A DNA stretch of 51,436 nucleotides from Ignavibacteriota bacterium (GTDB lineage: Bacteria > Bacteroidota > Ignavibacteria > UBA10030 > BY39): contig QOQV01000016.1 of NCBI GenBank assembly GCA_003327435.1, positions 1 through 51,436 on the forward strand. The letters are read 5' to 3'. The notes beneath the pieces were generated by a model. That model made no database searches, was not told the DNA's origin, and saw only the letters and a list, made by a program, of their open reading frames with translations. The translations under genes were made by a program, and so were the position numbers. Of the stretch, positions 8,170 to 11,185 are shown piece after piece; position 1 is the stretch's first letter, and every line of letters starts with the position of its first letter.

Positions 8170-8201
8170 TTTGCCTTTACAAGAAATTTTGTATAAATTT
8201 A
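8170..8201 (+). promoter_or_regulatory. Candidate promoter of tRNA-Val (and possibly the pyr operon)
   Basis: TTTG at 8170-8173, a 20-base spacer, then TAAATTTA at 8194-8201, close to the Bacteroidota pattern TTTG-N20-TAnnTTTG with only the last base off. Start of transcription would be near 8206, about 16 bases before the tRNA. No second convincing promoter is visible between the tRNA and the pyr leader. Confidence 0.45.
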
Positions 8202-8221: not shown

Positions 8222-8295
8222 GGGCGGTTAGCTCAGCTGGTCAGAGCGCACGGTTCACATCCGTGAGGTCATAGGTTCAAGTCCTATACCGCCTA
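8222..8295 (+). tRNA. tRNA-Val (anticodon CAC)
   Basis: A full cloverleaf can be folded by eye. Acceptor stem GGGCGGT (8222-8228) pairs with ACCGCCT (8288-8294) with one G-U at the first pair. The D arm is GCTC/GAGC, the anticodon stem is CACGG/CCGTG with loop TTCACAT giving anticodon CAC, and the T arm is ATAGG-TTCAAGT-CCTAT. The discriminator is A8295. CCA is not encoded and must be added after transcription. The tRNA sits 12 bases before the first strand of the PyrR-type hairpin of the pyr leader. Confidence 0.93.
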
Positions 8296-8307
8296 CAATG
8301 TAAAAAA

Positions 8308-8338
8308 CCTTTAATCCTATCCTGCGAGATAGGAAAGG
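8308..8338 (+). promoter_or_regulatory. Putative PyrR-binding hairpin in the pyr leader
   Basis: Upper stem TCCTATC (8315-8321) pairs perfectly with GATAGGA (8328-8334) around hexaloop CTGCGA, which fits the CNGNGA hexaloop of PyrR-binding RNA closed by C-G. A lower stem CCTT/AAGG (8308-8311/8335-8338) is separated by an unpaired TAA on the 5' side only, like the internal bulge of Bacillus PyrR sites. The 3' strand contains AGGAAAGGA, the only Shine-Dalgarno for the leader peptide starting at 8343, so PyrR binding would hide it. The next gene but one is pyrR itself. Structure is seen; binding is inferred. Confidence 0.7.
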
Positions 8339-8342
8339 ACTT

Positions 8343-8393
8343 ATGAAAAACATAAATTTAAATATTAACAAATTAAAATGCCTCTTTTTCTAA
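8343..8393 (+). CDS. Putative pyr leader peptide (16 residues)
   Basis: Short reading frame MKNINLNINKLKCLFF preceded by AGGAAAGGACTT, one of the better ribosome-binding sites in the window. Its stop codon TAA (8391-8393) falls exactly at the first bases of the terminator loop, so a ribosome reaching the stop would cover the 5' arm of the terminator stem. That geometry matches leader-peptide attenuators. It is not otherwise recognisable and may have no function as a peptide. Translation is inferred from ribosome-binding site and position only. Confidence 0.5.
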   Translation: MKNINLNINKLKCLFF

Positions 8394-8420
8394 AGCGGAA
8401 AGAGAGGCATTTCTTTTTTT
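8376..8420 (+). terminator. Intrinsic terminator/attenuator directly before pyrR
   Basis: A 15-bp stem (8376-8390 with 8398-8412, one G-U pair, core AATGCCTCT/AGAGGCATT) with a 7-base loop is followed by C and seven T residues (8414-8420). The T tract ends on the base before the pyrR ATG. Such a position makes sense as a regulated attenuator: transcripts either stop here or run into pyrRBC. It could also end the tRNA-Val transcript. Confidence 0.8.
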
Positions 8421-8978
8421 ATGAATGTAAAATCAAAAATAATGGATGAAGAAAGTCTGAGTAGAACGCTCTGGCGATTGGCACATGAAATTATTGAACG
8501 CAATCGAGGTAGTGAATCTATCGCAATAATTGGAATTAAAACCCGCGGTGAGTTCTTAGCAAAAAGAATTGCTAAGATAATCTCAGATATTGAAAAAAGA
8601 AACTTACTTATTGGATTCCTTGATATTACATTATATCGAGATGATATAATGCATAGAAAATTGGAACAACCGGTTCTAAAAGGTACAGAGATTAATTTTG
8701 ATGTAACAGGGAAAAATATAATCCTGGTAGACGATGTACTTTATACTGGTCGGACAGTTAGAGCTGCTTTGGATGAGTTAATTGACCTTGGTAGGCCAGA
8801 AACAATTCAACTTGCTGTTTTAATAGATCGGGGCCATCGTGAGCTTCCAATCCGTGCAGATTATGTTGGGAAAAATATACCTACATCAGAAAGCGAGGAA
8901 ATCAAAGTTCATCTTAGAGAAATTGATCATGAGGATGCTGTTTTTATAATTGAAAAAAATCAAAAAGAGAAAGAATGA
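8421..8978 (+). CDS. pyrR: Bifunctional pyr operon regulator PyrR / uracil phosphoribosyltransferase
   Basis: 185 residues, strongly resembling Bacillus PyrR along its whole length. The PRPP-binding loop [13 protein letters not shown] is at residues 101-113; [23 protein letters not shown] and [20 protein letters not shown] are other PyrR hallmarks. PyrR senses uridine nucleotides and binds pyr leader RNA; it also makes UMP from uracil and PRPP. The start at 8421 aligns with known N-termini, though there is no good ribosome-binding site and the terminator T tract abuts it. Its stop overlaps the pyrB start by four bases. Confidence 0.93.
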
Positions 8979-9889
8979 AAAGCAAACATTTATTGGGATT
9001 GTTTGGAATTGAGCGAGAGGAAATTGAACTTATCCTCAACACTGCTCACAATTTTAAAGAAGTTCTGGAGAGACCAATTAAAAAAGTTCCAACTCTTCAG
9101 GGTAAAACAATAGTGAATTTGTTCTTTGAAAGCTCTACACGTACAAGGATTTCTTTTGAACTTGCTGAGAGGCGACTTTCAGCAGATGTTGTGAATTTTT
9201 CAGTTTCAGGCAGCAGTGTGGCTAAAGGCGAAACTTTAAAGGACACTGCCCGCAATATAGAAGCAATGAAAATTGATTTAGTTGTTATACGTCACTCATC
9301 TCCAGGTGCTGCTCATTTCCTCAGTCGTGTGCTTAATGCAGGAATTGTTAACGCTGGTGATGGTACCCATGAACATCCAACACAGGCATTGTTGGATATG
9401 TTTACTATAAACGAAAAATTCGGAAGGATTGATGGATTAAAAGTTTGTATCGTAGGAGATATTTTACATAGCCGTGTCGCACTTTCGAATATTTTTGGTT
9501 TAAAAACTATGGGTGCCAGTGTATCAGTTTGTGGTCCTAAAACTTTGATCCCGCGAGATATTGAGAAACTTGGTGTTAAGGTGTATTATAATGTCAATGA
9601 AGCAATTCGCAATTCGGATATCTTAAATGTATTGCGGATTCAACTTGAGAGGCAGGATAAGGTGTTCTTTCCGTCAATTCGTGAATACCATCTGTATTAT
9701 GGAATTACAAGAGAGAGGATTCAAAAATATAACAGAGATATCGTTATTATGCATCCAGGTCCAATAAATCGAGATGTTGAAATCTCAGCCGATGTTGCAG
9801 ATTGTGAACAATCTTTAATTTTACAGCAGGTACTAAATGGTGTTGCCGTTCGTATGGCTATACTTTATTTATTAGGTACAAAAAATTAA
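8975..9889 (+). CDS. pyrB: Aspartate carbamoyltransferase catalytic subunit
   Basis: 304 residues, normal size for the catalytic chain. The carbamoyl-phosphate site [12 protein letters not shown] spans residues 51-62, [12 protein letters not shown] is the second conserved block, and [13 protein letters not shown] near the C-terminus binds aspartate, of the Bacillus rather than the E. coli sequence type. The enzyme makes carbamoyl-aspartate, the committed step of pyrimidine synthesis. Start overlaps the pyrR stop by ATGA. No regulatory chain pyrI is nearby, which fits PyrR control of expression instead of allosteric control. Confidence 0.95.
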
Positions 9890-9901: not shown

Positions 9902-11185
9902 ATGAAATTACTTTTTAAAAATGCGCACTTAATTAATCCGGCTCAAAAATTAAATAAAGTTGCAGATATTCTTATCATAGATGGAATCATAAAAAAAATT
10001 GAGCATGATATTATGTCAGAGCCTGATGTAAAAGAATATGATCTCGCAGGAAAAATTGTGGCTCCGGGTTTTGTGGATATGCATGTTCACCTACGCGAAC
10101 CCGGTTACGAACACAAAGAAACAATTGAAACGGGTTTACACTCAGCTGCAGAAGGTGGTTTTACTGCTGTTTGCTGCATGCCAAATACAAATCCACCAAT
10201 CGATGATGCTTCGGTTGTAAAATCAATTCTTCAAAAAGCAAAGGATGTACTCGGTGGAATAATTGATGTATATCCAGTGGCTGCCGCTACTAAAGGTCGT
10301 GAAGGCAAAGAATTATCACCAATGTTGGAACTTTCAGAAGCTGGTGCAATGGCATTTTCAGATGATGGTTCTACAATTTATAACACTGAAATTCTAAGAA
10401 GAGCTTTAGAATATTCAAGCATGTTGAATAGAATCATAATACAGCACCCCGAAGATTTAGAACTTTCAAGAAATGGGGTCATAAATGAAGGTTTTATTTC
10501 AACAATCTTAGGTCTTCCTGGAATTCCATCAATTGCTGAAGAAACTATTATCGAAAGGGATATTAGAATATTAGAGTATGTAGATGGATTTTATCATGCA
10601 GCTCACATTAGCACCAGAAATTCGGTTGAGATAATTCGAAATGCAAAGAGAAAGGGTTTAAATGTTACATGCGAGGTAACACCGCATCACTTCACATTAA
10701 GCGAGGAAGCAGTGAAGGGATTTGATACCAATGCTAAAATGAAACCACCATTAAGAACACAATCGGATATTGAAGCTCTTATTGAGGGATTATCGGATGG
10801 AACAATTGATGTAATTGCAACTGACCATGCCCCACATTCATTTGATGAAAAAGAAGTGGAATTTCTGGCAGCACCGTTTGGTATTGTCGGACTTGAAACT
10901 GCAATTGGGCTGGCTCTGACATATTTAGTTCATAAAAAACATTTAACAATAGAGCAACTAATTGAAAAGTTTTCTATCAATCCAAGAAAAATTTTAAGCC
11001 TACCCGAGATAAAAATTGAAGTAGGTGAAAAAGCGAATCTCACAATAATAGATATGAATAAAAAATGGACTGTTGATATTCAAAAATTTAAGTCCAAGTC
11101 AAAAAATAGCCCGTTCCACAATTTTGAATTAGTTGGTAAAAGTATCGGTATAGTTAACAATGGTAATGTATATTTTAATGAATAA
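9902..11185 (+). CDS. pyrC: Dihydroorotase (class I)
   Basis: 427-residue zinc amidohydrolase closing carbamoyl-aspartate to dihydroorotate. The metal-binding signature VDMHVHLREPGYEHKE (His61, His63) and the downstream TDHAPHSFDEKE block are intact; the length and sequence are those of class I enzymes. It follows pyrB by 12 bases with no terminator, completing the pyrR-pyrB-pyrC transcript. The remaining pyrimidine genes (carAB, pyrD, pyrE, pyrF) are not in the window. After its stop comes a 145-base gap, so the operon probably ends here. Confidence 0.94.
   Translation: MKLLFKNAHLINPAQKLNKVADILIIDGIIKKIEHDIMSEPDVKEYDLAGKIVAPGFVDMHVHLREPGYEHKETIETGLHSAAEGGFTAVCCMPNTNPPIDDASVVKSILQKAKDVLGGIIDVYPVAAATKGREGKELSPMLELSEAGAMAFSDDGSTIYNTEILRRALEYSSMLNRIIIQHPEDLELSRNGVINEGFISTILGLPGIPSIAEETIIERDIRILEYVDGFYHAAHISTRNSVEIIRNAKRKGLNVTCEVTPHHFTLSEEAVKGFDTNAKMKPPLRTQSDIEALIEGLSDGTIDVIATDHAPHSFDEKEVEFLAAPFGIVGLETAIGLALTYLVHKKHLTIEQLIEKFSINPRKILSLPEIKIEVGEKANLTIIDMNKKWTVDIQKFKSKSKNSPFHNFELVGKSIGIVNNGNVYFNE

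Follow-up and report, generated by a model that had tools for sequence, protein, structure and literature searches.

The pyr leader and its gene neighborhood

The window, by which we mean the whole analyzed stretch of 51,436 nucleotides from an Ignavibacteriota genome, carries a pyrRBC operon that is preceded by a short leader (8296–8420) and, further upstream, by a tRNA gene. From 5′ to 3′, the following features were assigned:

8170–8201, + strand: probable promoter TTTG-N20-TAAATTTA, 5′ of tRNA-Val, proposed from the same arrangement in four genomes of family f1
8222–8296, + strand: tRNA-Val(CAC), single copy (ARAGORN and Rfam; matched in full once genome-wide), probably on one transcript with the pyr leader
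8304–8418, + strand: whole PyrR binding site/attenuator (Rfam PyrR, RF00515; cmscan 54.1 bits, cut-off 54)
8308–8338, + strand: PyrR-type hairpin with CTGCGA hexaloop, the predicted PyrR site (from the fold, the conserved CNGNGA loop and the covarying stem)
8330–8339, + strand: 5′ half of a helix that could serve as antiterminator (duplex −9.5 kcal/mol), judged too weak to act
8334–8339, + strand: AAAGGA, Shine-Dalgarno-like, in the hairpin 3′ strand, 3 nt 5′ of the leader ATG
8343–8393, + strand: leader reading frame MKNINLNINKLKCLFF, with start position and open frame kept in relatives
8376–8412, + strand: intrinsic terminator stem-loop of 16 pairs with loop 8392–8396 (−21.3 kcal/mol)
8413–8420, + strand: terminator U tract CTTTTTTT, adjoining the pyrR start
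8421–8978, + strand: pyrR (NCBIfam NF003549, 250.7 bits)
8975–9889, + strand: pyrB, aspartate carbamoyltransferase (NCBIfam NF002032, 412 bits)
9902–11185, + strand: pyrC, dihydroorotase (TIGR00857, 444 bits)

The 125-nt leader folds with −34.0 kcal/mol (z = −5.8), and none of 200 shuffled sequences was equally stable. Its hairpin consists of a lower stem (8308–8311/8335–8338), a UAA bulge (8312–8314) and an upper stem (8315–8321/8328–8334) closed by the loop at 8322–8327. An A-rich spacer of 37 nt separates the hairpin end at 8338 from the terminator, which starts at 8376 and pairs 8376–8391 with 8397–8412. Sequence and fold, the latter proposed as a check by the original prediction, thereby bear out the anatomy described there: the hexaloop hairpin, the 16-codon frame from ATG 8343 to TAA 8391–8393 with its stop at the top of the terminator, and a T tract that ends one base before the pyrR ATG at 8421. 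The ribosome-binding site placed in the hairpin 3′ strand is likewise present as AAAGGA, although the AAAGGA-CTT-ATG spacing is short for a Shine-Dalgarno helix. The RF00515 match covers the whole model, barely passes its cut-off and is the sole one in the 2.6 Mb genome. At E ≤ 1, Rfam also returned PyrG_leader (33.8 bits, cut-off 65), which we discarded as a chance likeness of terminators.

PyrR of the window shares 58% identity with its Bacillus counterpart. Of the RNA-binding residues of PyrR, nearly all are kept: R15, R19, H22, R27, T41, H140, R141, R146 and K152 are conserved, and T18 is replaced by W. An Ignavibacteriaceae record (locus L075) encodes a PyrR that is 57% identical to that of the window and is preceded by the same hairpin and ATG. 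One open reading frame of the window features a T9SS-type NYPNPFN tail.

The tRNA-Val(CAC) gene, overlooked in the original prediction, ends at 8296, 11 nt 5′ of the hairpin. In the comparison, f numbers denote families, and G and L numbers genomes and loci. On the same strand, tRNA-Val(CAC) stands 5′ of the hairpin in f1 (5/5), f3 (6/14), f4 (19/31) and f5 (10/15), with gaps as small as 0 nt: in some f5 genomes the hairpin abuts the tRNA 3′ end. It was not found 5′ of the hairpin in f6 or the wider class. Four families of the order thus preserve the neighborhood of tRNA and pyrR, and this would imply a tRNA–mRNA co-transcript. We propose such a transcript also because a promoter-like pair, TTTG-N~20-TAAATTT, stands 5′ of the tRNA in four f1 genomes; the pair in the window resembles the Bacteroidota promoter consensus, TTTG/TAnnTTTG. 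The pyr leader hence probably forms the 3′ portion of a tRNA transcript that starts upstream of tRNA-Val. In the window, TACAAT at the tRNA 3′ end (8294–8299) could serve as a −10 element; it is not conserved, and f5 loci with no gap between tRNA and hairpin leave little room for such an element.

Conservation of the hairpin and of the leader frame

Leaders were collected via PyrR protein matches for the order and via Rfam hits for the class. Among the 98 genomes of the order that were searched, all 75 of good quality gave a PyrR protein match, a few of them only to other phosphoribosyltransferases with weak E-values. The hairpin is present in 128 of 135 genomes for which a leader was retrieved; within the order set, it is absent from f2 (G005–G007) and from two loci at contig edges. 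Its CNGNGA loop is kept in 126 of the 128 hairpin-bearing relatives. Covariation in related genomes, a check that the original prediction had suggested, is evident in the stem as well: across the six loop-proximal pairs, 612 of 636 cells hold standard pairs, compared with 533 (maximum 547) after shuffling of partners.

For the leader start codon we used one genome per genus from all families other than f4 (n = 58 genera). An ATG lies 0–9 nt past the hairpin in 51 of these genera, and dinucleotide shuffles yielded a mean of 13.1 and a maximum of 22. The next 10 nt contain an ATG in 2/58 genera. This sharp peak at 0–9 nt is found in families f1, f3, f5, f6, f14, f16 and f24. In f14 and f24 the ATG directly abuts the hairpin, and initiation there therefore cannot use AAGG in the normal way.

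The frame that follows was called open if it ended no more than 13 nt (one ribosome reach) before the terminator 5′ arm or ran further. This applied to 46 of 48 genera, compared with 25 and 31 for the other two frames and with a mean of 30.1 and a maximum of 39 in 200 shuffles. The wider class gives the strongest signal (25/25 vs 10 and 13); at the 13-nt limit the signal is weak in f3, f5 and f6 taken singly, and f6 alone is not significant. Hexaloop and leader frame, on whose conservation the original prediction had staked itself, are thus both conserved. The sequence of the leader peptide is not conserved between families. What speaks for coding is therefore the position of the start and the openness of the frame, and the function would lie in translation as such rather than in the peptide.

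Within the genus of the window, represented by the window and a sibling genome (G001), the sole indel lies 5′ of the ATG, and the 16 codons and the stop position are the same. The predicted stop at the terminator loop is shared by both genomes; it is, however, not general among relatives, and in many of them the frame crosses the terminator to end at the pyrR start. The leader ATG was also considered as the start of a longer pyrR and was rejected because most genomes have in-frame stops no later than the pyrR start. In f6, f14 and f24 (e.g., L183 and L217), the terminator 3′ arm often contains the pyrR Shine-Dalgarno sequence in the order GGAGG, U tract, ATG. Folding of the terminator may thus hide the pyrR start as well.

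Antiterminator competition and the predicted role of a leader ribosome

The original prediction had dismissed a Bacillus-type antiterminator as weak, with about seven pairs, three of them G-U. The count was wrong: 8330–8339 can pair with 8383–8392 over 10 contiguous pairs, two of which are G-U. Still, the dismissal as such holds. We evaluated transcripts cut before the terminator 3′ arm and compared the hairpin state with an open state in which the hairpin 5′ strand is freed. This competition test was preferred because z-scores from shuffled terminator arms are uninformative where the arms are C/U-rich. In the window, the open state lies 7.9 kcal/mol above the hairpin state; the sibling genome is at +6.7 kcal/mol, and G003 and G004 are at +5.4 and +8.5 kcal/mol, respectively. 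In the positive control, 19 of 22 Bacillaceae loci favored the antiterminator, with a median of −2.3 kcal/mol. A favored antiterminator was not found in any of 43 loci of f14, f16 and f24, with medians of +4.0, +9.0 and +7.9 kcal/mol, respectively.

Part of the order behaves otherwise. The open state is favored in 12 of 30 f4 genomes, a number blurred because the automatic search missed or misassigned the terminator in a few loci of f4 and f6 (e.g., G32 and G35). In the family of the window, G002 (L012) features a long spacer without a leader ATG and an antiterminator of 8 pairs at −1.9 kcal/mol. Since this genome has a workable antiterminator, the two designs appear to have been exchanged at short evolutionary distance. 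Both elements occur together in 7 cases, the leader frame only in 77 and the antiterminator only in 11; 26 cases have neither at the cut-offs applied, including mis-parsed terminators (e.g., G32) and possibly leaders with other start codons. Leader frame and antiterminator hence tend to be mutually exclusive (Fisher p = 0.004, in a statistic that ignores kinship). This suggests that, judged by sequence comparison, they replace each other within one order.

We consider it likely that in the pyrRBC attenuator PyrR blocks leader translation, and that the switch arm is leader translation rather than an RNA antiterminator. Because hairpin and terminator do not overlap and a competitive antiterminator is missing, the ribosome would be the only route by which PyrR acts on the terminator. 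With ample uridylate, PyrR-UMP would clamp the hairpin at 8308–8338 and hold the region just 5′ of the leader start. Initiation at 8343 would then fail, the terminator (8376–8420) would fold and transcription would stop. When uridylate is scarce, PyrR would be off the RNA, the weak lower stem could open, and a ribosome could initiate and trail RNA polymerase. At the stop codon (8391–8393) it would cover the whole terminator 5′ arm (8376–8391), so that no terminator forms and pyrRBC is transcribed. We infer PyrR binding, the UMP response, the ribosome action and the promoter from anatomy and conservation. The comparison supports this core model of the original prediction, as an ATG behind the hairpin, an open frame and mostly no antiterminator recur in the class. 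Several points weigh against it: Shine-Dalgarno spacing is short in the window, ATG and hairpin abut in f14 and f24, and G002 forms an exception. Moreover, the helix 8330–8339/8383–8392 is long in the window and could act kinetically.

A rival reading is a Bacillus-type switch, in which 8330–8339 would pair with 8383–8392 without PyrR, whereas bound PyrR would stabilize the hairpin and let the terminator form, the leader frame being incidental. Ten contiguous pairs with their duplex energy are in agreement with such a switch, as are the RF00515 match at the window and the strong antiterminators in G002 and part of f4. We nevertheless regard it as unlikely: the open state of the cut transcript is at +7.9 kcal/mol as opposed to the Bacillaceae median of −2.3 kcal/mol, the hairpin forms first, and leader start and frame are kept beyond chance in relatives without any antiterminator. 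Alternatively, the leader frame might be an accident of A-rich sequence beside AAAGG, with regulation absent or exerted in another way. The spacer is indeed A-rich and the peptides differ between families; yet 51 of 58 genera have the ATG where no shuffle exceeded 22, and the frame is open in 46 of 48, which renders an accident highly improbable.

Control could also be mainly translational. Leader translation would then open the terminator, whose 3′ arm carries the pyrR Shine-Dalgarno sequence, and couple to pyrR initiation, with termination being secondary. In favor of this, the terminator 3′ arm contains Shine-Dalgarno-like bases in f6 (8/13), f14 (11/18) and f24 (17/20); moreover, leader stop and pyrR start overlap in f6 (9/11) and f3 (8/13). 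In the window, however, a strong U tract and a stem of −21 kcal/mol argue for a real terminator, a gap of 13 nt separates the Shine-Dalgarno-like AGAGAGG (8401–8407) from the ATG, and 27 nt lie between the leader end and pyrR. We thus give mainly translational control little probability here, although transcriptional and translational effects can act together. Returning to PyrR-gated leader translation that prevents termination, a more speculative joint reading, which we put forward as a possibility only, would describe the locus as a tRNA-fused PyrR switch. The pyr leader would be the 3′ trailer of tRNA-Val(CAC), with the hairpin at or adjoining the tRNA 3′ processing site. The PyrR-gated leader ribosome would both prevent termination and open a pyrR start buried in the terminator, and ribosome arm and Bacillus antiterminator would have been swapped several times in one order around an unchanged protein–RNA contact.

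Relation to known pyr regulatory systems

In textbooks, PyrR attenuation is an RNA-only switch. The pyr attenuators of Bacillus subtilis share with the window the PyrR family, the CNGNGA hairpin (RF00515) and a terminator before the gene. They differ in the antiterminator, which is favored in the Bacillaceae loci and too weak in the window, so that the window does not class with the Bacillus type. RF00515 exceeds its cut-off in 11 of 391 genomes of the class, and 110 have a match at E ≤ 0.001. The model thus seems to be tuned to the Bacillus form and to under-score the form with a leader ribosome.

PyrR-mediated translational repression in Mycobacterium smegmatis was reportedly described by Fields and Switzer in 2007. 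There, as in the window, the PyrR hairpin overlaps a translation start region. In M. smegmatis, repression acts directly on the start of the pyr genes, whereas the start gated in the window would be that of a leader frame 5′ of the terminator. The hairpin of the window was not found over the ribosome-binding site of pyrR; it ends 82 nt 5′ of the pyrR ATG, with the terminator in between. In one Trueperaceae locus (L134), the hairpin ends about 7–14 nt before the apparent pyrR start and leaves no room for a terminator, which suggests that this Deinococcota genome uses direct, Mycobacterium-like repression of translation. A looser likeness exists to E. coli pyrBI, in which a leader-frame ribosome prevents the terminator. 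There, UTP is sensed through RNA polymerase pausing without PyrR; in the window, translation initiation would be the gate.

The closest likeness is to Thermus. For pyrRBC of Thermus ZO5, Van de Casteele and colleagues are said to have proposed in the Journal of Bacteriology in 1997 that, with PyrR and no antiterminator, a ribosome translating the leader prevents the terminator. The original prediction had presented the joining of the Mycobacterium-type and pyrBI-type principles as a new combination; this claim falls, since the Thermus proposal is reportedly older and Deinococci loci share the anatomy. To our knowledge, the ribosome mechanism was proposed this once, was not tested since, and control of readthrough by the leader was not shown there. 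Like Thermus ZO5, the window has PyrR, a terminator 5′ of pyrR and no competing antiterminator, together with a start codon behind the hairpin and a frame reaching the terminator. Thermus belongs to another phylum, and the stop at the terminator loop and the tRNA-Val directly upstream set the window apart. In Deinococci, an ATG or GTG lies at most 13 nt past the hairpin in 19/19 loci, mostly at 7 nt, and a favored antiterminator was not found in any of the 17 loci evaluated. The open-frame test is weak there (16 vs 13 and 14), as expected with high GC. Most Deinococci frames run through the terminator, whereas that of the window stops at its loop. An ATG behind the hairpin was also seen in several Omnitrophota and Zixibacteria loci and is mostly absent in Bacillaceae.

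It is thus well supported that the window carries a further case of the Thermus-type arrangement, which proves widespread. Well over a hundred genomes were compared, and the layout with a predicted leader ribosome proved to be the usual one in the bacterial class of the window, where it would replace the Bacillus RNA switch. The findings in Deinococci, several Omnitrophota and Zixibacteria suggest that, outside Bacillota, the same protein–RNA contact commonly works via a leader-frame ribosome. New in this work are the tRNA-Val gene 11 nt upstream and the exchange of antiterminator and leader frame within one order. If our reading is true, one RNA-binding regulator is wired to termination in two exchangeable ways, the Bacillus and the Thermus type, and the exchange of both wirings can be studied inside a single order.
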